Positions 4,411 through 49,899 of a stretch of DNA of 64,000 bases are shown piece after piece. This DNA is from Melastoma dodecandrum. Lineage: Eukaryota > Streptophyta > Magnoliopsida > Myrtales > Melastomataceae. The translations under genes and the position numbers were made by a program. Position 1 is the stretch's first letter. Each line of letters begins with the position of its first letter. The DNA is taken from NCBI GenBank assembly GCA_029817715.1, contig JARUPY010000079.1, forward strand, positions 310,001 through 374,000, in the 5' to 3' direction. The notes under the pieces were generated by a model. The model searched no databases. It was given only the letters and a program-made list of their open reading frames with translations, and had not been told where the DNA came from.

Positions 4411-5935
4411 TTGAGGTATTCATTCCTCCAAAACACCAATCAACTCCCTGTGATTATTTCTATAGAATTGACGGAGTTGCAGGAGGAGAAATTACTTCGA
4501 ATCTTGAGGGATCACAAGAGGGCGATAGGATGGACTACTGCAGATATCAGAGGAATCAGCCCAGTAATTTGCATACATAAAATCCTCCTCGAGGACAATC
4601 ACAAACCATCGATAGAGAATCAACGGAGATTGAACCCAAGCATGAAAGATGTTGTAAAGAAGGAGATCATCAAGTGGCTCGATGCAGGTATCATCTATCC
4701 TATTTCTGACAGCACGTGGGTTAGTCCTATACAGTGTGTTCCCAAGAAAGGCGGAATGACAGTAGTAACAAATGAGAAGAATGAACTCATCCCTACTCGC
4801 ACTGTCACGGGATGGAGGGTATGTATGGACTACCGGAAGTTAAACAAAGCAACAAGAAAAGATCACTACCCGCTTCCATTTATCGATCAAATGTTGGACA
4901 GATTGGCAGGTAAAGAATATTATTGTTTTCTCGATGGTTACTTAGGATATAATCAGATTGCTATTGCACCAGAAGATCAGGAGAAAACGACTTTCACATG
5001 TCCATACGGTACGTTCGCCTTCCGTAGAATGCCATTTGGATTGTGTAATGCACCTGCTACATTCCAAAGGTGCATGACGTCCATTTTCACTGACATGGTA
5101 GAACGATCTTTAGAAATTTTTATGGATGACTTTTCCGTCTTTGGTGACTCATTTGATAATTGCTTATATAATCTTGCATGTGTACTCGAATGTCGTGAGA
5201 AGACTAATCTAATCCTAAATTGGGAAAAGTGTCACTTTATGGTTCGGGAAGGTATTGTCCGTGGTCACAGGGTGTCAAGTAAGGGCATTGAAGTTGACAG
5301 AGCAAAGACTGAGACCATCGAAAAGTTATCCCCACCAACATCGGTAAGAGCCATCCGAAGTTTTCTTGATCATGCTGGCTTTTACAGGCGATTCATTAAG
5401 AATTTCTCCAAAATATCGAAACCATTATGCAATCTTTTGGAGAAAGACATACCATTCAACTTTGATAAAGCATGCATGGAAGCATTTACAAAATTGAAAG
5501 AGAGGTTAGTTACACAGCACCTATCATTGTAGTGCCTGATTGGACATTACCTTTTGAATTGATGTGCGATGCGAGTGACTATGCCTTAGGAGCAGTGCTT
5601 GGGCAACGTAAGAATACGGTCTTTCATGTGATTTACTATGCTAGTAGAACTTTGGACGATGCACAGGTAAATTTCACGACCACTGAAAAGTATCTACTAG
5701 CTGTCGTATTTGCTTTCGATAAATTTCGATCTTACCTTGTGAGTTCGAAAGTCATAGTGTTCATAGATGACTCCGCGATCAAGTACTTGATTGAGAAAAA
5801 GGATGCAAAACCACGATTGATAAGATGGGCTCTCTTACTGTAAGAATTCGATCTCGAGATCAAGGACAGAAAAGGAATAGAGAATCAAGTAGCTGATCAC
5901 TTGTCAAGGCTAGATGGTCAAAGCGACACCAAGCT
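4411..5935 (+). pseudogene. Reverse transcriptase and RNase H of the Athila-like element
   Basis: RT occupies 4411-5532: fingers with VCMDYRKLNKATRKDHYPLP, palm with FLDGYLGYNQI, the YxDD-type site as FMDDFS (about 5119-5136), and thumb RRFIKNFSKISKPL. A 2-bp insertion near 5515 moves the frame, and RNase H continues at 5472-5843. Motifs there are [15 protein letters not shown] (first catalytic Asp), [12 protein letters not shown] (Glu) and [10 protein letters not shown], where the usual DHxAL has become DDSAI. A stop at 5841 is followed in frame by the RNase H end with VADHLSRL. The enzyme would copy element RNA into DNA; this copy is inactive. Confidence 0.88.
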
Positions 5936-32360: not shown

Positions 32361-33343
32361 TGTTGACATGGCAAATAATTTTGGGCCTGGGCTTAGAACA
32401 GAGACCCAGTAATCCCTCAAGTCACACTCGTAGTCGGCCCAAGATACAGCCGTCTAGGCCGATCCATGACGAAGTCGACTATGTCGATTTACGACGAAGT
32501 CGACTAGGTCGACTTATGAACGAGGTCGATTAGGTCGACTCACAACAAAGGAGTATGGCGATCAAAGTCAACCAAGATGACTCAACAGTAGCTAGGCCTA
32601 CTAGTAGGGTCAAAGTCGACGGAATTCTGGATAAGTCGACCAAGTCGATCGTAGTCCGTACAGATCAGTCAAGTCGACGAGGTTAAAATAAATTTATTCA
32701 TTTTCAATCACGTTTGTTAAAGATCGTAACTGATCTTAAATATCCAGGAACGTGATCCCATATATCAAGGGGGTTGTTGAGACACTCCCACGATATTAGG
32801 GATCACGATCTATAACACGATCTGCAAAACGATCTATCTGTTACGTGTTAATCACGTACAAGTCCTCTATAAATAGCAGAGGAATTCTTCAAGATAAAGA
32901 CACGACCATACACAGCCAAGGCTCTGAAGTTTGTTCGTCAACCTTAGGAATTAGATACCCTGACCCGGTTTATAGGTCAACTATCCTTCCACCGACAGAG
33001 TGAGCTCGTAGGGCCTTTGCCGTCAATCCCCCGCCAGCGACACCACCGACGGAGTGAGCTCGTAGGGCCTTCGTCACAGCTTCCCGCCAGCGACCACCAC
33101 CGACGGAGCGAGCTTCCAAGGCCTTCGTCACAAGTTCTCCGCCGTCACAGGATTCCACATCGTTGACACCGTTTACCCTTTTCATTTTTGATGGCTGTAA
33201 GCCCTTGTTCTTAATTCGTTAGATTGTAAGACTTGCATTTTATTTTCAAATAAATTCGTGCATCTTCTTACTGGCGACCACAACTCGATTCCTGTGAGTC
33301 CTTTGCCAAATATTTCCGACGTGATCCGTTCTATAGACGAACA
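32361..33343 (+). repeat. 5' LTR of the Tat-lineage element
   Basis: 983 bp, TGTTGACATGG to GAACA. It contains three 25/26-bp units around ACGAAGTCGACTAGGTCG (32466-32545). A TATA box CTATAAATA lies at 32867-32875. Three ~60-bp units beginning ACCGAC.GAGTGAGCTCG follow at about 32990-33150. The TATA box defines U3/R; transcription would begin about 30 bp downstream. Confidence 0.92.
32867..32875 (+). promoter_or_regulatory. TATA box in the 5' LTR
   Basis: CTATAAATA within TCCTCTATAAATAGCAGAGG, present identically in the 3' LTR at 44494-44502. It is the obvious core promoter for the element's RNA. Confidence 0.7.
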
Positions 33344-33349
33344 CGTTTT

Positions 33350-33367
33350 TGGCGACCATAGTGGGAG
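33350..33367 (+). promoter_or_regulatory. Primer-binding site
   Basis: TGGCGACCATAGTGGGAG begins 6 bp after the LTR. It starts with TGG, as a site pairing with a tRNA CCA end must. It resembles the TGGCGACTCC type used by Tat elements, but the tRNA was not identified. A partial copy (CGTTTTTGGCGACCACG) recurs at 33392. Confidence 0.65.
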
Positions 33368-33412
33368 CACGTTGAGAAAAAACGTTGAGAACGTTTTTGG
33401 CGACCACGTAAC

Positions 33413-35458
33413 GTGACTTTTGAGCAATCTGAGATAAGGACGAATGCTCTCTTTGAACCCGGGAATCTGGTTTCCCCTGGTCAACCCTCTTCTTCACGTA
33501 CTCAACCAGCGAATACGTATTGGGATGAGGCAGATCACTTCCAAGAGGAAACAGATCGGGGGGAGGATTTTATTCCGGTTCGTCGCCCTGGAAAAGAGCC
33601 AATGGTCGACGCAGTTGGAGGTCCCTATGAGCCTGGACCCCGGAGTGGTAATCATCGTGAGGAGCCTTCATTTTATGTAAGGGATCCAACGAGCCAGGCA
33701 ATGGGAGAAAGGCCTCCGTATAGCCCGTCAAGGCCAACTCGACTCGCAGGGCAGGGGCCGATAGGCGGTGTACCCCCAGACTTAAGAGAGGCCATAACTC
33801 AGGTTATAGAGCAAGTCGTCCCCGGAATAGCTCGGCGAGATGACACCTGTTTATACAGGCCTCCTTATCCTGCGTACATTGACAGGGATTTCCCTTTACC
33901 TAGGGGTTATAAGGTGCCCGACTTCACTCGCTTCTCAGGCGAAGATGAAATGACTCCACTTGAGCATATTGCTCGCTTCACTCATCAACTTGGCGAGGCG
34001 GCCGGCAATGACTTCTGGAAACTAAAGCTCTTCCCGAATTCATTAACCGGGGATGCCTTTACCTGGTATGCAGGTTTGCCGTCGGGGTCAGTAGCTTCAT
34101 GGACTCAGATGCAGTCCATGTTTGTTAAAACCTTTGCTCGACTTGATACCCCCATGTCAATGTTTGAGGTTATGCGCCTTAGGCAGGCTAATGGGGAACA
34201 CCCGGGGCAGTTTTTAATGAAACTTAGAAATGTCCTATTACGGTGTAGGCCTCCCATACCGGAGAAAGATCAGTTGCTCCTCGCATTAAATGCGTTGTCC
34301 ATTCCTTTCTAGAAAAAGCTTCAAGGGGAGCGCTTTGCCGACTTATATGATTTGGCAAGGAGAGCCACTGAGTACAATCAGCTCCTAACAGAAGAGGCCA
34401 AGCTGACTCGAGCCTACCAAGTTGATACTTATGAAGTCGACGTGGCCGAGTTTGTTAAGGGAGAGTCAACTATATGTGACCTCTTGACTAGGAAAAATTC
34501 TAAAGCCAAAGCCTCCCAGAAAAATGCCGAGGAAAGGAAGTACTCCTTCGACACAGATAAAGTCGACGCCATTTTTGACTGGCTTTATCAAAAGAAAAGG
34601 ATCAGGCTTAAGCCTGGTCATCGAGTCCCTCAGACAGAAAGGGAAAAAAGTAGGAATTACTGCAAGTGGCATGGTTCCTTCACCCATACTACCAAGGACT
34701 GCCTGTCCTTTAGAAATATAATTCAGGATTTAATAGAGTCTAAAGAGCTCTGTTTTCCCGAAGTCGATGAAGTCGCCATGGTGGATGATAATCCATTTGA
34801 CGACGAAGTCGCCATTCATACATTTGATATATTTGACACTGAGGTTAACCTTGTAGAAGTCATTAACGACTCTGCTATACCCTCGCAGGATTTGCAAGCA
34901 ACCGGCGAGACCTTGGTAGCTAATGCCCTGCTGAAGCGACTGGCTGAGCGTGGGGTCGTCATCCTGCCAAAGGGAAGGGACAAGTGGCTTTGCCACTGGC
35001 ACCTGAACGACACTCACACGACGGACCAATGCCACACATTTAGGAAGTATCTGTTGGACAGTAAGATAGAAGACTGGTATGACCTGACTCCTTTCGAGGA
35101 AGCAGCAATGTCGTCGACTGCCCCCCGAGGACCTTCTCACGTCCTCAAAAGTCCTCCTAGTGTGGATCGCCGACTGGTTTCGCGAGGAGGACGAGGAGGT
35201 TCCCAGGGGCATAAGGGGAATGGAGAGCCAGCCGCCCGGGGTACGGAACGCCCGGCACGGCGACTTGAGTTTATGGACTCCTCTGGCCAGAGAGTCGTCA
35301 AGCAGGGGTACACTAGGACTACCCCTGTCAAGGAGATAAGACCTGTCGAAGAGCATAAGGGAGTGGACCGACCCCAACAGGCTGCAAGTCGCAGGCCTCG
35401 ATATGCGTCACAGACAGTCGACCCCCAGGAATTGCGGAGGGGACCTCCTATCGCCTAA
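33413..35458 (+). pseudogene. gag of the Tat-lineage element
   Basis: One frame from the leader to 35458, broken only by a TAG at 34310. The N-terminal 100 residues are polar and Pro-rich. The Retrotrans_gag core at about 33890-34310 has YIDRDFPLPRGYKVPDF, LKLFPNSLTGDAFTWYAG and FVKTFARLDTPMSMFEV. After the stop the frame continues with LARRATEYNQLL. Two Cys/His motifs follow: YCKWHGSFTHTTKDC (about 34660) and LCHWHLNDTHTTDQC (about 34990), which may act as zinc knuckles. An Arg/Gly-rich segment comes before a TAA at 35456, probably from CAA, because the same frame leads into the protease ORF. No ATG is evident near the 5' end of the frame; the first in-frame one is at 33602. Confidence 0.87.
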
Positions 35459-35461
35459 TTC

Positions 35462-36898
35462 TTGGATGAGAAGCTACTGTGCCAGAAGTGCAAGCTGATC
35501 GCCCACAATCGGATCCTTATTACCCAGCTCTGCACAGCATGCTGTGTCAGCTATTTCTTGCGGCTGGTCGACTTGTCCGCAAAAGGAGAGATGCTGGTAA
35601 AAGCGGTCCGCCCCGAGGGTACAGGTAATTCAAACCCCAGTAAACCCTCCTCGAATAAATCAGAAAATACTCCAGTGCAGGTGGGGTATGACCCAGTCGA
35701 CGACAGATTCATGGAGGTAAGCCGACTCCTTTTTGGTTCTAAGAAACCAAAATTCGTCAAAGCCCCTAACCCTTCGTCTCAATGGCAGAAGGTGGAAAGG
35801 AAGGTTGCGCCCCCTTTAAGGGCTCAGAAGAGAAAGGAAAGGCGTCTAAGTCACGCCCAAAAAAGACCTAGGATGACCCCTGCGGTGCCACCCTCGGAAG
35901 GGAACCAAGCCGCAGAGAAACAAGTCGCGGAGCCCGAACGGGTCGAGTCTACTGATTACTCGGAAAACCCGGGCTCAAGCTTCGACTACACTCCTCTACG
36001 AGGAGACAGGCCCTGCGACTTCAACGCAGAACAAGGGCCCCTCGTGAGTTGTAACGCTCTCACCTTTCCTGCGGAGTTCGCCTGCAACGACAAGTCGGAG
36101 GCGCCGAAAGGTAAAACCCTGGACTCTAAGGTCACTTCTTTTCCATCAGGCTTCCCTCTGCATTGGCTAAGGAAACCATCGGATCGCATGAAACAACACA
36201 TGCACTCGTTATACATCGCAGGCACCTTTGACGGTGTTTTGGTGGGTCGAGTCTTAATAGACAACGGCGCCACCGTCAACGTTCTCCCACTCACCAAGTT
36301 TAGACTACTTGGGTACAAGCCTAGCGAGTTGGTACGAACCGACGTGGCTGTAAGCGGCTTTAATGGGAGGAAGTCCGAATGCCTGGGGATATGCTCTGTG
36401 CATTTAGGCGTCGGAAGACACGAGCAGGAAACTACTTTCTTCGTAATTGACATAGCCCCTTCGTTTAATGCGCTTTTGGGACGCGATTGGCTTCATAAAG
36501 CCGCCGCGATCCCGTCGACTTTGCATAGGGAGTTGATTTTATGGCTTGACTCTGAAATAGAGACTATCGGGGCTGATGAATACTCCTGTTGTGACAAGGG
36601 CATTTTACATGCAGAAACATGCAAGACGATCAAGGACCTCACCTTGGATCAACGCTACAAGCTAGGAGACCCTACTGTCGGACCCCTAGGTGAACCCTCC
36701 GGGAAGTTCGACTTCATTGTGAGCTATGGCACCTCTCACCCTAAGCCTGACGAGGGACCAATCATGCCGACAGGATGGGGCCCCGACTTCACGGACAAGG
36801 ATATAGATGAAGTCCTGCAGGAAGTAGTCCCGACCAAGGATAGAGGCGAGACAGACAACAGTCCTAATGGCGACAAGGGGGAGGCGCCCAAGAGCTAG
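35462..36898 (+). CDS. Protease-bearing polyprotein section of the Tat-lineage element
   Basis: This 478-codon open frame, in phase with gag, starts after the TAA at 35456 with LDEKLLCQKCK. It has a basic linker (about residues 110-165). The aspartic protease at residues 250-360 has the active site LIDNGATVNVLPL (DNGA in place of DTGA) and the flap/hydrophobic motif FNALLGRDWLHKA. The tail has KDLTLDQRYKLGDPTVGPL, the segment also found at 178-384. It ends at TAG 36896 while RT begins in the next frame, so the junction is either a decayed frame or a frameshift site. The domain assignment is firm. Confidence 0.88.
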   Translation: MDEKLLCQKCKLIAHNRILITQLCTACCVSYFLRLVDLSAKGEMLVKAVRPEGTGNSNPSKPSSNKSENTPVQVGYDPVDDRFMEVSRLLFGSKKPKFVKAPNPSSQWQKVERKVAPPLRAQKRKERRLSHAQKRPRMTPAVPPSEGNQAAEKQVAEPERVESTDYSENPGSSFDYTPLRGDRPCDFNAEQGPLVSCNALTFPAEFACNDKSEAPKGKTLDSKVTSFPSGFPLHWLRKPSDRMKQHMHSLYIAGTFDGVLVGRVLIDNGATVNVLPLTKFRLLGYKPSELVRTDVAVSGFNGRKSECLGICSVHLGVGRHEQETTFFVIDIAPSFNALLGRDWLHKAAAIPSTLHRELILWLDSEIETIGADEYSCCDKGILHAETCKTIKDLTLDQRYKLGDPTVGPLGEPSGKFDFIVSYGTSHPKPDEGPIMPTGWGPDFTDKDIDEVLQEVVPTKDRGETDNSPNGDKGEAPKS

Positions 36899-37934
36899 GA
36901 AAGTGCTGCGACGGAGTTGGAGCCCGATAGACTCCTGCACGAAGGGTTGTATGGACAGTGACGAAGGAAGAGGCTATGCAGTCGCTGATCTCCTCCAGCG
37001 ACTTCAGGAGTATGCTAGGAAGTCTAGGAAATTAGGTTGCCAAATAAGCAATGTAAATGCTGAGGCTAACTTATCTAAGTCCATTGATACCGACTTAGGC
37101 GGTGTCCAGGGGCGCGAGTCACTCATGATGCCATGTGACCCGCTTGTAAGTATCAATTTAGGCGAGGAATCTAGCCCTCGGATCGCTTTCGTTAGTTCTT
37201 CAATGAATAAAGAACTTTTCAATTCTATTAAGGCTACTCTTGAAGAATTCAAGGACTGTTTCGCCTGGGACTATACTGAAATGCCTGGCCTAGATCGCCG
37301 ACTTGGAGAACATAAGTTGCCAATCAGAGCAGGATTTAAACCAGTCCAACAGGCACCAAGGAGAATGACTCATGAAGTCACTCAGGCAGTATTCGAAGAA
37401 GTCAAGAAGCTCTTTAAAGCTGGGTATATAAGAACATCGAGGTACACCGAGTGGATATCCAGCATAGTCCCCGTCATAAAAAAGAATGGCAAGATTAGAG
37501 TCTGCATCGACTTCAGAGACCTAAATCGTGCTACTCCAAAAGATGAATATCCCATGCCCATTGCAGACGACTTAGTTGATAAGACTGCAGGGCACCAAAT
37601 TATGTCATTCATGGATGGTTTCTCAGGATATAACCAAATTTTCTTGGCTGAGGAAGATATCCATAAAACCGCGTTCAGATGTCCCTTAGGCATTTTCGAG
37701 TGGGTAGTCATGCCGTTTGGGCTTAAAAACGCTGGTGCAACTTACCAACGAGCCATGAACGCCATTTTTGATGCTTCGATTGCCAAAACAGTCGAGGTAT
37801 ACATAGATGATATAGTGGTCAAATCAAAAGACGAGAGGTCGCATGTTAATGATCTTAGGAATGCTTTCCTCCAAATGAGAAAACACCAGCTCAAACTAAA
37901 TCCTCTCAAATGTGCTTTTGGAGTAAGAGCATGA
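36867..37934 (+). CDS. Reverse transcriptase of the Tat-lineage element
   Basis: ATG 36867 overlaps the protease frame by 32 bp, in the +1 frame. The RT domain runs from about residue 150: VPVIKKNGKIRVCIDFRDLN, FMDGFSGYNQIFLAEEDIHK, MPFGLKNAGATYQRAMN and the YxDD site YIDDIVVKS (about 37800). All palm residues expected for activity are visible. A TGA at 37932, probably from GGA before HFLGFLVHQRG, separates it from the thumb and RNase H in the same frame. The enzyme copies element RNA and would act inside the capsid with the downstream RNase H. Confidence 0.9.
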   Translation: MATRGRRPRARKVLRRSWSPIDSCTKGCMDSDEGRGYAVADLLQRLQEYARKSRKLGCQISNVNAEANLSKSIDTDLGGVQGRESLMMPCDPLVSINLGEESSPRIAFVSSSMNKELFNSIKATLEEFKDCFAWDYTEMPGLDRRLGEHKLPIRAGFKPVQQAPRRMTHEVTQAVFEEVKKLFKAGYIRTSRYTEWISSIVPVIKKNGKIRVCIDFRDLNRATPKDEYPMPIADDLVDKTAGHQIMSFMDGFSGYNQIFLAEEDIHKTAFRCPLGIFEWVVMPFGLKNAGATYQRAMNAIFDASIAKTVEVYIDDIVVKSKDERSHVNDLRNAFLQMRKHQLKLNPLKCAFGVRA

Positions 37935-37988
37935 CATTTCCTAGGGTTCCTAGTCCATCAACGTGGCATAGAAGTCGACCAGAACAAA

Positions 37989-40412
37989 GTGAATGCCATT
38001 CAAAGATTGAACCCTCCGAGTAATAAGAAGCAGTTACAGGCTTTCTTAGGAAGGGTCAATTATCTAAGGCGATTTATTGGTAACGTCGCTGGACGAACAG
38101 AAGTCTTCTCGACTTTACTAAAAGCAAAGGGAAACTTTGTGTGGGGCGACGAGCACCAGAAAGCATTTGAAGGCTTAAAGGAGTATTTAATGAATCCGCC
38201 TGTACTTGCCCCTCCTCGGGTAGGAAAGCCTTATCTGCTTTATGTGGCAGCAACCGAATCAGTCATCGGAGCCATGTTAGCCCAAGAGGCGGAGGACAAA
38301 ACCGAAAGAGCGGTCTACTATTTGTCAAGACAATTAACCGCTACAGAAAAGCGCTATACAATTAAGGAGAAGTTATGCCTGTCAGTCTTTTATACTGTTA
38401 CTAAGCTAAGACATTATATTGGATCCCAAGAGGTTCATGTCATTACCAAGTCTCCCGTCATAAAATATTTTTTCGAAAGTCCCCTACTGACTGGGAGAAC
38501 TAGTAAATGGAGCTTAGTGCTGTCCGCATATGATCTACGTTTCAAGTCCCAACAGTCGGTAAAAGGACAGGCTCTAGCCGACTTCTTGGTGAGTCACGAT
38601 CCATCCGTATCAATCGACCAAGAAGAATCCCTTGAGGACATCTGGCAGGGTTGGTTTGATGGATCTTCGGCGAAATCCGGCGTAGGTATAGGCCTTCGTA
38701 TACTTTCGCCACTAGGGAAAGATGTTCGTCTAGCGTATCGCTTGACGGCAGATCACACCAACAATGCGACTGAATATGAAGCTTTGATCACGCTCCTGAA
38801 GGAACTATTAACCTTGGGAGCCAAGAAAGCCACAATAATGGGGGATTCTCAACTGGTGATTAACCAGATGAATGGTACTTCTATATGCCAGGAGAAACTC
38901 ACACCCTATCATCAAGTCGCCCGTAAACTGGTCGAGCGATTTGAAGCGATCACTTTCTTCTTTGTAGGTCGAGGGGAAAATACCATCGCTAATGACTTAG
39001 CCCAAAAGGCTTCAGGATACAAGGCCAAAAGAGGAAGCGATTGTATCCCAGAAATAGTTTCCCACCTAGCTCCCCAAAGCGACGCGTTCACCCTGGACAT
39101 AATGACAAGCGATAAGGATTGGAGGAGGCCAATCACCGACTTCCTTTCCGACCCAACACAAAAGGCGAGCCAAAGAATCAAGACTCAGGCTTTGTCATAC
39201 ACCCTTATATATGGGGTACTTTACAGAAAGACCAAGGAAGGAGTCCTACTAAGGTGCGTCGACTTAGACGAAGCGACCCCAATTATGTTAGAGACTCATC
39301 AGGGTTTATGCGGGTCTCACCAATCTGGCACCAAAATGTCTTGGACTATCCAAAGACATGGTTTTTACTGGCCATCAATGCTAAAGAACTGCATAGAAAT
39401 GGCTAGGGGATGCCAAGAGTGTCAAAAACATGGTCCGGTGACAAGGGCCCCAGCGTCCGACTTAGTCTCAGTCGTCAAGCCTTGGCCATTTAGGTCTTGG
39501 GCTTTAGATATAATCGGGGAAATCCATCCGCACTCAAGTAAAGGTGACGCCTATATTCTAGTCGCCACCGATTATTTTACTAAATGGGTCGAGGCTCAGG
39601 TATATAAGAAGATCGATCACAAAGAAGTGATCGATTTTCTCAAATCATCCATCGTCTATAGATTTGGAATTCCCCAGAATATCGTAGTGGACAATGGCAC
39701 CGCTTTCAATAATGAGAAAATGCGAGAATTCGCTATGGAGTTTGGTTTCTCAATCACCAACTCAACACCTTATTATCCTCAGGCGAATGGACAGGCTGAA
39801 GCTACCAATAAACTCATAAAGAACAATATTCAGAAAATGGTTGGCGCAAATCCAAGAGAATGGCACCAATTATTACAAGACACTTTGTGGGCTTTGAGAG
39901 TTACTAAGAGAGAAAGCACAGGGGAAACCCCTTTTTCACTAGTATATGGGCAAGACGCCGTCCTACCTATTGAGGTTCGATACAAGTCGCTCAGGGTGAC
40001 TCATCCTGATTTACAAGACGAGGCAATGTACCTCGCTTTGGACGAATTAGAGAAGAAGCGACTTGATGTAATAGACCGACTCGAGGTGCATAAACAAAGT
40101 ATTGCTAGGCATTATAACAAAAGGGTTGTCCATAAGCACTTTAAAGTGGGCGACTTGGTTTGGAAGATGGTGCTACCCCTTAAATCGAAAGACCAAGTTT
40201 TGGGTAAATGGTCCCCTAATTGGGAAGGTCCACATGAGGTATGTGAAGCATACTCATCTAATAGCTATCGGCTTATGACGAGAAGTGGGGTCAGACATCC
40301 ATTAAAGGTTAATGGTAAATATCTCAAACCCTATCGCGCGACTATCTGGGAAGCTCACCATAAAATCCTAAGACAAAGGACTCCATTAATTTGGGAAGCG
40401 CTTAATTCCTAA
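37989..40412 (+). CDS. RT thumb, RNase H, archaeal-type RNase H and integrase of the Tat-lineage element
   Basis: An 807-codon intact frame continuous with RT. Residues 1-70 are the RT connection. Residues 75-200 are the Ty3-type RNase H, whose first catalytic Asp is lost (YVAATESVIGAM), as is common in Tat. Residues 213-345 are a second, archaeal-type RNase H with all four acids in WFDGSSAKSG, TEYEALI, MGDSQLVINQM and NTIANDLA. Integrase follows: an HHCC finger (HQGLCGSH...CQECQKHG), core Asp in ALDIIGEI, Asp in VDNGTAFNN and Glu in YPQANGQAEATNK, then a C-terminal SH3-like part with FKVGDLVWK. The N-terminal limit is arbitrary, since the polyprotein starts upstream. It stops 131 bp before the tail-to-tail antisense gene. 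Confidence 0.93.
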   Translation: MNAIQRLNPPSNKKQLQAFLGRVNYLRRFIGNVAGRTEVFSTLLKAKGNFVWGDEHQKAFEGLKEYLMNPPVLAPPRVGKPYLLYVAATESVIGAMLAQEAEDKTERAVYYLSRQLTATEKRYTIKEKLCLSVFYTVTKLRHYIGSQEVHVITKSPVIKYFFESPLLTGRTSKWSLVLSAYDLRFKSQQSVKGQALADFLVSHDPSVSIDQEESLEDIWQGWFDGSSAKSGVGIGLRILSPLGKDVRLAYRLTADHTNNATEYEALITLLKELLTLGAKKATIMGDSQLVINQMNGTSICQEKLTPYHQVARKLVERFEAITFFFVGRGENTIANDLAQKASGYKAKRGSDCIPEIVSHLAPQSDAFTLDIMTSDKDWRRPITDFLSDPTQKASQRIKTQALSYTLIYGVLYRKTKEGVLLRCVDLDEATPIMLETHQGLCGSHQSGTKMSWTIQRHGFYWPSMLKNCIEMARGCQECQKHGPVTRAPASDLVSVVKPWPFRSWALDIIGEIHPHSSKGDAYILVATDYFTKWVEAQVYKKIDHKEVIDFLKSSIVYRFGIPQNIVVDNGTAFNNEKMREFAMEFGFSITNSTPYYPQANGQAEATNKLIKNNIQKMVGANPREWHQLLQDTLWALRVTKRESTGETPFSLVYGQDAVLPIEVRYKSLRVTHPDLQDEAMYLALDELEKKRLDVIDRLEVHKQSIARHYNKRVVHKHFKVGDLVWKMVLPLKSKDQVLGKWSPNWEGPHEVCEAYSSNSYRLMTRSGVRHPLKVNGKYLKPYRATIWEAHHKILRQRTPLIWEALNS

Positions 40413-40499
40413 GAAATCGCGCTAGGCTTCAGTAACGCTGTCTGGAAGAATGAATCGAGCGTAGTGGGCAGAAATTCATTTGAGACACAAGTCACTTGA

Positions 40500-40505
40500 T
40501 TTATT
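40500..40505 (-). terminator. Poly(A) signal of the antisense gene
   Basis: AATAAA on the minus strand, about 40 nt past the TAA stop of the antisense gene at 40544. It falls in the 131-bp gap between the two convergent genes. Confidence 0.55.
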
Positions 40506-40543
40506 CAGTAAAACAAAAACAATGGAATTGCATTGTTCTTTGG

Positions 40544-43500
40544 TTACGAATCTAATTTCCATAACCCGCCAACTTCTTTGAAATCGAGGACAAGGGATTT
40601 ACGAGCTCGTCGCTTCGCGTTCATCTTGTTTCGCTGGGCATAAAGGTCGACGACCTTTTCTCTATCCTTCTCAGCATTGGCCTCCAGCTCCTCGATTTCT
40701 TGAGTATTGATCGATGCAAGCTGCCGAGTCAGGTCATTCTTGAGGTTCGTGTAGAACTCTATCTGTCTCTCTGCCTCGGTCAGCTTCTCTTGCACATCGA
40801 CCAAACGTTGGCGGGCGTCCTGTGCGGCTTTAGAGGCCTGCCCTCGAGCTTCATTGATCGACTGAATCTTCGAGTCAGTCGAGTCCAAGGTGAGCAGGTC
40901 GGCGTAGTAATCCCTCCAGCGGGTCCAGTACGTCGACCTGAAGCTCTTGCAGGCCCCCAATATTTCGTCCGTGACCCGAGGGGATGTCTCGATCCTCTTC
41001 AACAGCTTCTGCATCCTCCTAAATTCGTTGACGCTTAAGGGGTCGATGAGCAGAAGTTGGCAAAGTTCTTCGATATCCTCGTGAAGCTTCACCCACGGGT
41101 CTTTGGTCGACCTAGAAGTCGCCACAGCAAGATCCTGAAGAATAAGAGGCAAAATGTTATTAGATAATACCCTAAAAAAGGCCAACGATGTCGTGCGATC
41201 GAATACTTACCTCTGGAGGCGATCTATCCCCAGAGCTCTCATCCGAAGAAGAAGGAGGAGTGGAAATCTTCTGTCGGCAAGCAGTCACCTTCACCCTCTT
41301 CGGACGGGCCTATAATGAAGGATATAAATACCTCAATCAAGATCGCAATGATAATACTATGATCTGTTTAAGGACACATACCATCCCTGGTGTAGGAGTT
41401 TGAACTGGAGAAGAAGGAATAGTTTGGTCTTCCTCCTCACGAGTCGACCGAGTCGGTGGCTCGACCGGGATCGTGACAGCCTGTTCTTCTTGAACCAAGG
41501 CCTCAGGGATTTGCTGTTCCTGAAACAGAGTATGACGCAGAACCAAAAGTTCATGTATGAACTAAGGTAAGGATGCACCAGCTGAGAATTAAACTTACCT
41601 TGGCGATCGAAGCCTTTGAACTTTGGCCCAAGTTGTGGGAGATAAGCTGTTGGTCACCCTTATCTGAAGCCTTTCCCTAAACAATATGGTATGGGTCAGA
41701 TGTGAAAACTCAAAATAAAACTGGAGTCATCAGAGTCTCACATCGACTACAGCTGAAGACACTGGCGCCGCAGCTGGTGCCTTAGTAGATGAGGTCGCCG
41801 CTGCTGCAGTTGGCGACCTGGATGGGGTCGCCGCTGCTGCAGTTGGCGACCTGGATGGGGTCGCCGCTGCTACAGTTGGCGACTTGGACGGGGTCGCCGT
41901 TGCAACAGCTGGCGACCTGGATGGGGTCGCCGCTGCAATATTTGGCGACCTACGAGAGGAAGTCGCCACCTTCACCATTCTTTTCCTCTGGGATAGAGGC
42001 ATCTCCTCAAGATCTTCTTCCTCGGCCGCCTTGCGCTTTGGAGCGCTTTTAGGTCGAGCCTTAGAGGGATCACCTGCGGCTATTTCCCTGGGGCTCGCAA
42101 CTTTAGCCTTCCCCTTGCTAGTCGACTTGAGTCTAGAAGGAGCAGGGGCAAGGGGGGCTTTAGGCTTGGATTTTCCAGAGCCCTGAGGAAGCATTGATCC
42201 TGAAAGGGAGGAAGCTTATGATTAATATTAAGAAACCAATACTCTTAAAGTAAAGCTAAGTCTTTACCTTTGGCTTTAATGTGCGCGTCATCGGTGTAAA
42301 AATCAGGTTCCTTGGAAACATCCAAGAAGTGCATCAGGGCCCGCAGCTCTTCATAGGTAGTCGACCACAGCACAGTGAAGAACTGTGTGGCGAAACAGGC
42401 AGAAGTGTCAGATGGGAATTCCATCTGGGAGAGCTGCGTCTTGTGATTGAGCAAGTCGAGGGTCGTCGAGTTAATCGACTTGCACGCAATCCTCTTCGCC
42501 CTATCCCCATATAAGCCGCCGGCAGGGTCAGCAAGTGGAACTGCTACACTTTGGATAAACCCAAACTGCCTTGCACACAGTTGAGGGTTATAGACTTCAA
42601 AGGTCAGGTAGCCGTCGAAGATAACTGGCAGATCTCTGCGGGTCAATACCCCATTCCAGAAGCCACGAGCAGCTTGAGGATTGATTTCCTGAGCAAGTGT
42701 CTTGCCGCCTGGAAAGGGTGCCCAGTTGCGTCGATCTACCCTGCCGAAGTCGACTATATGCTTTAAGTGGCCAGTGATCGATGTCATAAGCCATTGATCC
42801 TTACACTAGCAGCACTGATCCAGGATGGTCTCCCCATAATAGGAGGATTCGAGGGGCGAAGAAGGGCCCTTGAACCCAGTCAATCCTGGCATCCACATGG
42901 CCGACCAGAGATGAACTAACCAGAGCAACCCTCCTGCTGGATGTTTTGGAAATGGCTTGATTTGAGACGTTGCTCTGTCCAGATCATGGTAAAGAAGACC
43001 CAAAACGAAGGGGCCCCAGGAGATTTCTTCATTGGTCTCCCTCAGAAAATTGGCCACCGCATAAGAAGTGTGGCTAACCTTCTTCCCAGGGAAGCAATAA
43101 ACAAATTTGCTCAACCAGGTGCTGAGGAACTCGACCTCTTCCCGGGCGCCAAAACCTTCAGTCGACAACTTCTCATCTGACCTCTTGCCTGCTGAGGCCA
43201 TTTTCAGATGCCTGCTCAACACCTCCATGTACTGAAGGGCGCCTTTGGGATTAATATCATCTGCCTGAGAGTACTGCCGAACAGGGCAGCCGTTGATTTT
43301 GCACCTGGTCAAAATCTTCACATCTGCCAATGTAACAGACATAGGACCTTCCGGGAAATAGAAGCAGTTGACAGCAGAGTTCCAGAAAGGCAGCATGGCC
43401 GAACAAACCCTAGGATCACAGTTCTTGTCTGCCATGGACATTCTAAAGAATCTCAAGATCTTCTGATTCCTAAACCTCTCTGTGAAATGCTCCTCCCACA

Positions 43501-43774
43501 TCTCGAGCTATTCTACCATCTCAGACTTAGATGCATAAGGAAAACACAGGAAAGATCCCTGACCTTCCCAGTTGAGGGGATCGATGAAGTCGGGATGACA
43601 AATCGGGATGGGCTTCTCGGTGATGAGATAGTTGAGCGGCACCGTCTCCGGGAAAAGATGCTCCGGCAAGATGGGTCCAAGAGTGACGCCCGACCCCTGA
43701 TCCTCTGCGACCGGAACGGGTCCGGTTAGCCCCGCACGCAGATTATGGAACTCAAAACACTTAAAAGTTGACAT
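40544..43774 (-). pseudogene. Six-exon plant-mobile-domain (PMD) gene, antisense in the retrotransposon
   Basis: Exons on the minus strand: 43774-42268, 42199-41742, 41676-41599, 41519-41382, 41309-41211, 41134-40544. Introns of 65-79 bp have GT...AG ends; examples are AAAG/GTAAAG with CCTTTCAG/GA, and GCCAAG/GTAAGT. Exon lengths 1507+458, 78, 138, 99 and 591 keep one frame and give about 956 codons. Residues 1-430 hold the PMD: FWNSAVNCFYFPEGPMSVTL, EVEFLSTWLSKFVYCFPG and PAGGLLWLVHLWSAMW. Exon 2 encodes Ser/Pro/Ala repeats and a basic stretch, exon 5 a basic PKRVKV-type segment, and exon 6 a coiled coil. Two in-frame TAGs (43508-43510, 42806-42808) interrupt exon 1. PMD proteins occur in host silencing factors (MAIN/MAIL) and in transposons; the role here is unknown. 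Confidence 0.82.
41780..41955 (-). repeat. 33-bp tandem repeat coding for SPTAAAATPSR units
   Basis: Five imperfect units of GTCGCCGCTGCTGCAGTTGG plus 13 bp (plus sense) lie in exon 2 of the antisense gene. Each adds eleven residues, so the frame is kept. The product is a low-complexity Ser/Pro/Ala hinge between the PMD and the coiled coil. Confidence 0.85.
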
Positions 43775-43900
43775 CTTTTTAAGGATCAAAAGAGTTTTGA
43801 CAAGGGAGACGAAGGGTTTTCTGAGAAACAAGGGTTTCTTGGAAAGACGGAGAAGTGTTGAGCAAGGAAGAAAAGTGCGGGAAAAGGATGATGACTCTCC

Positions 43901-43910
43901 TTTATATAGG
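43901..43910 (-). promoter_or_regulatory. TATA box of the antisense gene
   Basis: CCTATATAAA on the minus strand, about 130 nt upstream of ATG 43774 and about 55 bp inside the 3' LTR. Spacing suits a plant RNA polymerase II promoter with a ~100-nt 5' UTR. It is separate from the LTR promoter and points the opposite way. Confidence 0.6.
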
Positions 43911-43949
43911 GTATGATTTCTGCTGAGTCGGCACAGCCAACCCAGCATA

Positions 43950-43962
43950 AAAGGGGGGCTTA
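43950..43962 (+). promoter_or_regulatory. Polypurine tract of the Tat-lineage element
   Basis: AAAAGGGGGG followed by CTTA and the LTR start TGTTGACA. This is the expected plus-strand priming site. Confidence 0.75.
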
Positions 43963-44970
43963 TGTTGACATGGCAAATAATTTCGGGCCTGGGCCTAGAA
44001 CAGAGACCCAGTAATCCCTCAAGTCACACTCCTAGTCGGCCCAAGATACTGCCGTCTAGGCCGATCCATGACGAAGTCGACTAGGTCGATTTATGACGAA
44101 GTCGATTAGGTCGATTTACGACGAAGTCGACTAGGTCGACTTATGAACGAGGTCGACTAGGTCGACTCACAACAAAGGAGTATGGCGATCAAAGTCAACC
44201 AAGATGACTCAACAGTAGCTAGGCCTACTAGTGGGGTCAAAGTCGACGGAACTCTGGATAAGTCGACCAAGTCGATCGTAGTCCGTACAGATCAGTCAAG
44301 TCGACGAGGTTAAAATAAATTTATTCATTTTCAATCACGTTTGTTAAAGATCGTAACTGATCTTAAATACCCAGGAACGTGATCCCATATATCAAGGGGG
44401 TTGTTGAGACACTCCCACGATATTAGGGATCACGATCTATAACACGATCTGCAAAACGATCTATCTGTTACGTGTTAATCACGTACAAGTCCTCTATAAA
44501 TAGCAGAGGAATTCTTCAAGATAAAGACACGACCATACACAGCCAAAACTCTGAAGTTTGTTCGTCAACCTTAGGAATTAGATACCCTGACCTGGCTTAT
44601 AGGTCAACTATCCTTCCACCGACAGAGTGAGCTCGTAGGGCCTTTGCCGTCAATCCCCCGCCAGCGACACCACCGATGGAGTGAGCTCGTAGGGCCTTCG
44701 TCACAGCTTCCCGCCAGCGACCACCACCGACGGAGCGAGCTTCCAAGGCCTTCGTCACAAGTTCTCCGCTGTCACAGGATTCCACATCGTTGACACCGTT
44801 TACCCTTTTCATTTTTGATGGCTGTAAGCCCTTGTTCTTAATTCGTTAGATTGTAAGACTTGCATTTTATTTTCAAATAAATTCGTGCATCTTCTTACTG
44901 GCGACCAAAACTCGATTCCGGTGAGTCCTTTGCCAAATATTTCCGACGTGATCCGTTCTATAGGCGAACA
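43963..44970 (+). repeat. 3' LTR of the Tat-lineage element
   Basis: 1008 bp. It is nearly identical to 32361-33343 but holds four instead of three of the 25/26-bp ACGAAGTCGACTAGGTCG units, which accounts for the length difference. TATA box at 44494-44502. The GTCAC duplication follows at 44971. Confidence 0.92.
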
Positions 44971-49200: not shown

Positions 49201-49745
49201 ATGACAAGTAGATATCAAGGTGATTCAGGAGAGGATCATTAGACGACATTCAAAACTATCCTCAAGTATTTGAGAAGAACAAAAGATATGTTCTTGTTCA
49301 ATGAAGGAGATGATGAATTGGTGGTTAGATGATATATTGATGCTAGTTTTCAGATAAATCGAGACGATCTAAAATTGTATCTAGTTTACGTGTTCTGTCT
49401 AAATGGAGCATTTTTTGTTGGAAAATTTACCAAAGAAAGGAATAGTTGCAAATTCTACAATAGAATCTGAGTACATAACAGCTTCAAAAGCCGCAAAAGT
49501 AATTTGGATCAAGAACTTTATAAATGAACTTGAAGTAGTTCATAGTATTAATTGCCCGATTTTGTTATACTATCGCAACAATATTGTTATAGCGCAAAGA
49601 AAAGAAGCCAATGTCCCACCAGTGATCCAAAAAAGGGCAATGTTTGGCTTAAGCAAGCACAACGTAAGGGAAATATTATATTTTTTAGCACTGGAAGCTC
49701 CTTGCAGAGGTGAACCTTGTCATGATCTATCTTGTTTCAAAGAAT
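46255..49745 (+). pseudogene. Ty1/copia pol fragment (integrase end, RT, RNase H)
   Basis: It starts in the integrase core C-terminus (46255-46470; TAYMLNQVPTKVVYKTPSELW), then the integrase C-terminal part with KNGSSDKFAIRSIKCC. RT runs from about 46900 to 47608: WHMDVKTALLNGRLAEKVYM, YGLKQ and the catalytic site mutated from YVDD to YVNS (about 47487). Sequence resumes at 48955 and ends in RNase H with STIESEYITASKAAKVIWIK (about 49455) and LYYRNNIVIAQRKEA. Stops and frame changes abound. A long-TIR MITE interrupts it at 47617-48946. Gag, protease and LTRs are missing. Confidence 0.85.
47617..48946. mobile_element. Long-TIR MITE (MULE-like), non-autonomous
   Basis: Terminal inverted repeats of about 330 bp: the left arm starts GGCCAAATTATCAAATAT, the right arm read in reverse GCCTAATTATCAAATAT. 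Match is about 70-75% by eye and extends through CTAGCGGAGGCCTA/CTAACGGAGGCCTA and TTAAGACATTATCTCAAAAT. An 8-bp duplication TAAAATAT flanks it (47609-47616, 48947-48954). The core (about 47950-48640) has no transposase. Long TIRs with an 8-9-bp duplication fit Mutator-like MITEs. The insertion site is within the copia codons for a KIY-type motif after RT, and the reading resumes on the other side. Confidence 0.8.
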
Positions 49746-49899
49746 GCCATCATTAATATAGTTATACTTTATGAGTAACATTCTGTATGGAAGAATTTTA
49801 TGCTCGTTCCTCTTCACATTTGTCATGTATCGATGAATCCAATCACCTATAGATGGATGTAGTTGTTACTGTAAATATTACAGCTACACATGATCTTTT
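49746..49899. other. No feature seen
   Basis: Short stretch between the copia RNase H end and the next fragment; no ORF or repeat recognised. Confidence 0.4.

Follow-up and report, generated by a model that had tools for sequence, protein, structure and literature searches.

A five-intron gene for a plant mobile domain protein lies antisense to gag-pol in a Tat-lineage retrotransposon of Melastoma dodecandrum and is under purifying selection

Results

Organization of the element and its antisense gene

The window analyzed here, a 64,000-nucleotide stretch of Melastoma dodecandrum DNA, contains a Ty3/gypsy LTR retrotransposon on the plus strand and, between the end of pol and the 3′ LTR, a gene with five introns on the opposite strand. 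The features and their window coordinates are as follows.

32361–33343, plus strand: 5′ LTR; 964 of 1008 aligned positions identical to the 3′ LTR, one 25-bp gap counted; target site duplication GTCAC
33389–40412, plus strand: gag-pol, in several frames in the window copy; Pfam matches to gag, protease, RVT_1, RT_RNaseH, RVT_3, H2C2 and rve, and open reading frames
43963–44970, plus strand: 3′ LTR, from the alignment with the 5′ LTR
43900–43908, minus strand: TATA box TATATAAAG of the antisense gene, the same in 21 of 21 copies
42268–43774, minus strand: exon 1, with the ATG (43774) and the plant mobile domain (PMD; PF10536), from the gene model and Pfam; dN/dS 0.122
42200–42267, minus strand: intron 1, 68 bp, GT-AG, retained in L078
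41742–42199, minus strand: exon 2, basic linker and 33-bp (11-residue) repeats, from the gene model and repeat analysis
41677–41741, minus strand: intron 2, 65 bp, GT-AG, retained in L078
41599–41676, minus strand: exon 3, the least certain exon of the gene model
41520–41598, minus strand: intron 3, 79 bp, GT-AG, retained in L078
41382–41519, minus strand: exon 4, from the gene model
41310–41381, minus strand: intron 4, 72 bp, GT-AG, retained in L078
41211–41309, minus strand: exon 5, from the gene model
41135–41210, minus strand: intron 5, 76 bp, GT-AG, retained in L078
40544–41134, minus strand: exon 6, predicted helical C-terminus and stop, from the gene model and Pfam; dN/dS 0.265
40500–40505, minus strand: AATAAA poly(A) signal, exact in 16 of 21 copies

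The LTRs are bounded by TG...CA. The pair differs by 19 substitutions in 983 bp (~2%), and 25 of the non-identical positions are gaps. Substitution rates in plants are 0.7–1.3 × 10⁻⁸ per site and year, at which the divergence corresponds to an insertion age of roughly 0.7–1.4 million years. U3 harbors a 25-bp tandem array (44056–44165 and 32468–32540), and the 25-bp gap between the LTRs falls there. A further ORF at 49403–49756 lies in the window outside the element and, judged by eye, resembles the end of a Ty1/copia polyprotein.

The Pfam matches on the plus strand follow the order gag, protease, reverse transcriptase (RT), RNase H, second RNase H and integrase. The second RNase H (RVT_3, ORF residues 268–359) is situated between RT_RNaseH (97–199) and H2C2/rve (446–615), which is the arrangement described for the angiosperm Tat clades Ogre and Retand (PMC6317226). 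The position of RVT_3 between RNase H and integrase therefore assigns the element to the Tat lineage (Ogre or Retand alike), in agreement with the carrier named in a first-pass annotation made from the sequence by eye.

The antisense unit occupies the gap from the pol stop at 40412 to the 3′ LTR. The gene model of the first-pass annotation, comprising a TATA box, an ATG, six exons, five GT-AG introns, a stop and AATAAA, was reproduced to the base. The spliced model forms a single frame of 956 codons, in which the two TAG triplets reported for exon 1 of the window copy were recovered in frame at codons 89 and 323; the window copy itself is dead.

The encoded protein

The PMD assigned previously to the antisense protein was recovered as a match to the PF10536 profile at residues 109–414 (E 5.7e-26; 91.9 bits vs. 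a cut-off of 34.9). The domain is followed by a basic linker with a nuclear localization signal (NLS)-like stretch and 11-residue repeats, and then by a tail that is predicted with modest confidence to be helical. With regard to the C-terminal coiled coil proposed earlier, matches of the last exon to coiled-coil families were weak and each fell under its Pfam cut-off. The repeats are encoded in exon 2 by an in-frame 33-bp tandem repeat (41788–41951) whose copy number differs among copies of the gene. AlphaFold2 modeling of eight relatives from Melastoma candidum gave a mean pLDDT of 34.5.

The antisense protein produced no Pfam match to TRP28 (PF04195) at E 10, and none to domains suggestive of a role in particle, import or integration steps. 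TRP28 also was unmatched in the genome, a weak negative as 14 control genomes likewise gave none. Among the five other genomic PMD loci compared with it, the best reached ~25% identity over 191 residues. The PMD is very abundant in the genome, with 2690 first-look PF10536 candidates of which 117 were scored. One of these loci (L011) joins the domain with MULE transposase and SWIM domains, and the top-scoring one (L009) is a 759-residue open frame with a PMD (one frame scanned). Compared with L009, to which its identity is ~25% at best, the antisense protein has in addition the linker and the helical tail.

Conservation among copies in the same genome

The genome assembly scanned comprises 373 Mb in 607 contigs. 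A DNA search with exon 1 returned 475 first-look candidates of which 40, the window copy among them, were scored, and these share at least 95% identity. The set of 21 copies analyzed consists of the window copy and 20 of the 39 other scored copies; as the antisense gene was the query, the set is made of gene-bearing elements.

The TATA box placed ahead of the gene in the first-pass annotation and the ATG were invariant in all 21 copies, and the AATAAA was exact in 16. In the 20 other copies, 195 of the 200 splice dinucleotides were comparable (five were deleted), and 193 of these were unchanged; the two changes compare with ~34 expected at the intron rate. Indels were multiples of three in 42 of 57 cases in exons vs. 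6 of 35 in introns, but common descent of the copies, together with the 33-bp repeat units that make up many exon indels, leaves the splice-site and indel contrasts less independent than they appear, and the probabilities calculated for them are overstated. Exon 3 lacked constraint by codon position, although its length was a multiple of three and it was stop-free in all 21 copies.

Fourteen codons bear a stop in at least one of the 21 copies, ten of them in a single copy. The exons are free of stops and frameshifts in five copies and broken in the remaining 16, including the window copy. Copies without the window TAGs were sought, and each TAG proved to be confined to one of the 21 copies.

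Selection on the antisense gene

Across the 21 copies, codon positions 1, 2 and 3 had nucleotide diversities of 0.040, 0.034 and 0.090, respectively; the figure was 0.085 for introns, and 0.079 and 0.099 for the 5′ and 3′ UTRs. Mean pairwise dN/dS was 0.122 for exon 1, which is not near 1, 0.107 for the PMD match and 0.265 for exon 6; the linker is weakly constrained (0.57). Exon-1 variants present in two or more copies had a pN/pS of 0.126, compared to 0.321 for singletons, the pattern predicted when selection operates during spread and is relaxed later. The conservation of the protein, greatest in the variants that spread, means that copies in which the gene worked had more descendants.

RT was used as a yardstick for this constraint. 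RT stretches were sought for ten copies and nine matched, which with the window copy again made ten. Within these same ten copies dN/dS was 0.117 for RT, 0.118 for antisense exon 1 and 0.233 for exon 6. Purifying selection on antisense exon 1 is as strong as that on RT.

A second family and annotated relatives

A protein search with P0004 yielded 2561 candidate places of which 81 were scored: 39 with 91–99% identity to P0004 and 42 with 77–79%. Two of the 91–99% group (L077 and L078), both loci of a second family, were examined. L078 aligns along the entire antisense gene, with exon 1 being 76% identical, and possesses five GT-AG introns at the same positions with lengths of 82, 64, 75, 66 and 77 bp. 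Exons 1–5 differ only by multiples of three and the frame is open up to the end. The introns thus are present in many copies and in two families, which substantiates the earlier proposal that they came through retrotransposition. Between-family dN/dS was 0.09–0.11 for exon 1 and 0.26–0.27 for exon 6. The dS of exon 6 was ~0.5 between families vs. 1.3–1.5 for exon 1, whereas the two exons were alike within the family; a mosaic origin or extra constraint may account for the low exon 6 value. L077 has exons 1 and 2 and a peptide similar to exon 3, and the C-terminal part was unmatched within 3751 bases. Some antisense genes may therefore encode a PMD without the helical tail.

Protein relatives numbered ten, all from M. 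candidum, and none from outside Melastoma was among the matches listed in searches that needed shared five-residue words. The junction of exons 1 and 2 was reached and present in eight of the ten proteins when inspected by eye. P0010 (918 residues) matches almost end to end with 87% identity and is without a counterpart of exon 3. The M. candidum annotation combines RNA-seq, homology and Augustus predictions, and sequencing reads of this species are available as SRR22574044–SRR22574048 (PMC9911893). Element genes of this type thus get into plant annotations as ordinary proteins.

A short motif enriched across the element

The motif AAGTCGAC/AAGTCGCC is enriched throughout the element (32361–44970), in the LTRs, gag-pol and the antisense gene, and in gag-pol the enrichment goes beyond codon and protein constraint. 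Out of 512 five-letter words, GTCGA ranked first to third in each of the 5′ LTR, gag-pol, the antisense gene and the 3′ LTR, vs. 47th and 100th in the flanks. In gag-pol, AAGTCG occurred 33 times compared to 8.7 (sd 2.6) in synonymous-codon shuffles, GTCGA reached a z of 1.9 in codon shuffles, and AGTCG was found on both strands and unevenly across frames. AAGTC was not enriched in the antisense coding sequence (10 vs. 11.0). AGTCG sites numbered 20 and 25 in the two families, of which 3 were shared, so positions mostly are not common. Third positions within motifs showed no extra conservation in the antisense gene (p 0.29), and those in RT were more diverse (0.109 vs. 0.070); ranked by third-position diversity, GTCGA came 36th among 129 words. 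A CpG test gave p 0.002, but is small (9 sites) and is not relied on. In the LTR part, compared at 27 loci (20 places and 7 overlapping ones), 14–24 or 26 GTCGA sites were kept despite divergence.

The triple array pattern occurred 350 times in the genome vs. 0 in the reversed control. A further gypsy element (L079) with identical LTR parts (269 bp), and without blastn similarity to the window, carries its own 29-bp tandem array of the AAGTCGAC motif at 80–155 and 5159–5234. As a candidate for a self-specific binding site, the motif is enriched across the window element but is found also in this unrelated one and is not conserved site by site. A shared site for a transcription factor or a mutational bias may explain the motif, and its enrichment alone does not make the PMD protein the binder.

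Discussion

Antisense ORFs between pol and the 3′ LTR, termed aORF-3R, are described in the Tat elements Grande (gene23), RIRE2 and Retand; gene23 is driven by a promoter of its own and its product is nuclear, and the conservation of aORF-3R is similar to that of other element proteins (PMC7264820). In Retand, antisense ORFs for TRP28 are present in 97% of clusters (PMC11963269). The window gene resembles these as a conserved ORF in the same antisense location, but the aORF-3R described carry TRP28 or no known domain, whereas the window gene carries a PMD and has no TRP28 match. By term counts, PMD and introns are unmentioned for aORF-3R in the text available from PMC7264820 and PMC11963269, and the former review, from 2020, calls for a search for antisense and spliced transcripts (PMC7264820). 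PMDs themselves are known in gypsy elements (PMC5418596, PMC6317226, PMC9289625), where they form the clades PMD-A1/A2 and are found in 57% of Ogre elements (PMC5418596, PMC6317226). The PMD of the window gene likewise sits in a Tat-group Ty3/gypsy element; the text available on the gypsy PMDs gives neither their strand nor introns or constraint. The Pfam PMD domain is shared also with host MAIN/MAIL proteins. Intron-bearing antisense genes in mobile elements have a parallel in antisense homing endonuclease genes with spliceosomal introns in mobile group I introns (PMC9548176), although that case involves another element, enzyme and copying route. Neither a multi-intron antisense PMD gene nor a measure of its constraint was found in the literature searched, the scope of which is without Steinbauerova 2011 and Gomez-Orte 2013. 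Thus, Tat antisense ORFs and gypsy-borne PMDs were known already; relative to the literature searched, the five-intron antisense PMD gene and its measured constraint are new.

The conserved structure and the constraint on the protein suggest that the antisense gene is a third gene of the element family, with an mRNA that would be made and spliced and a nuclear protein that would act for the element (probability ~0.6). It is a conserved accessory gene, probably part of the element life cycle and not a passenger. The conserved TATA box, from which transcription would start, lies just inside the 3′ LTR, and the unit ends just beyond the pol stop. The introns are kept in a reverse-transcribed copy because they are of the wrong sense for the genomic RNA: they would stay unspliced in the transposition template and be copied with the element. 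The antisense mRNA would be spliceable, and a plant gene structure could be kept as long as the element moves. The element likely depends on the protein, the activity of which is a more tentative matter. An anti-silencing role at chromatin, in which it would relieve or tune host transcriptional silencing, is the preferred proposal, being consistent with the PMD, the NLS-like stretch and the VANC parallel, but should be regarded as no more than a working possibility. VANC of VANDAL21 is an anti-silencing protein with a conserved core and a fast variable part with tandem peptide repeats, and the element holds tandem DNA arrays (PMC5735166). The antisense protein similarly is element-encoded, with a conserved core and a fast-evolving linker with tandem peptide repeats, and tandem DNA arrays occur in its element. 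However, VANDAL21 is a DNA transposon and the window element a retrotransposon, and the DNA motif here is shared with an unrelated gypsy element.

In the host, the PMD proteins MAIN and MAIL1 have a part in silencing, together with PP7L (PMC5418596, PMC7156037). As these proteins promote silencing, the element's PMD protein, alone or with antisense RNA, might instead repress its carrier through the host machinery and so limit harm to the host. A gene constrained like RT, and a transcript that would run antisense to the 3′ portion of the genomic RNA, are compatible with copy-number control of this kind. It nevertheless is unlikely: a self-repressor is expected to be lost readily in escaping copies, yet two families retain the gene and the spreading variants are the most constrained. 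The convergent layout with gag-pol recalls a general proposal for such elements (PMC7264820), under which the antisense RNA would pair with the genomic RNA into double-stranded RNA, the protein being incidental. The codon-position pattern, the in-frame indels and the dN/dS of 0.12 require selection on the protein, which disfavors RNA as the sole function and renders this explanation quite improbable.

Plant elements do capture genes (PMC7264820) and the window copy has stops, so one could envisage a relic, or a gene taken from the host that rides along with no benefit to the element. Against the 475 first-look candidates, the two diverged families and the best identity of ~25% over 191 residues to the other PMD loci of the genome, this is highly improbable; the families and the low identity exclude recent capture, and recent capture only. 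An accessory role at the particle, import or integration stage, comparable to that of some retroviral factors, has been suggested generally for antisense ORFs (PMC7264820), and the NLS-like stretch and predicted helical tail would suit a protein of this type. Such a role is improbable, as PMD relatives of known role act in silencing and no domain of that kind was found. As an extension of the anti-silencing proposal, the element's own spliced PMD factor could block or redirect MAIN/MAIL1-PP7L silencing through AAGTCGAC-type sites that are spread across the element, arrayed in U3 and gathered also by an unrelated gypsy family, such that several families would live off one anti-silencing factor. 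This scheme is a long shot.

No function has been attached to the antisense ORFs of Tat elements in the years since they were recognized. In the antisense gene described here, the complete exon-intron structure is open to verification with reads, the constraint is calibrated with RT, and the domain is common to host silencing factors. It shows a simple route by which a retrotransposon can retain introns, and provides a concrete system in which to ask whether the PMD was first a tool of an element or of the host.
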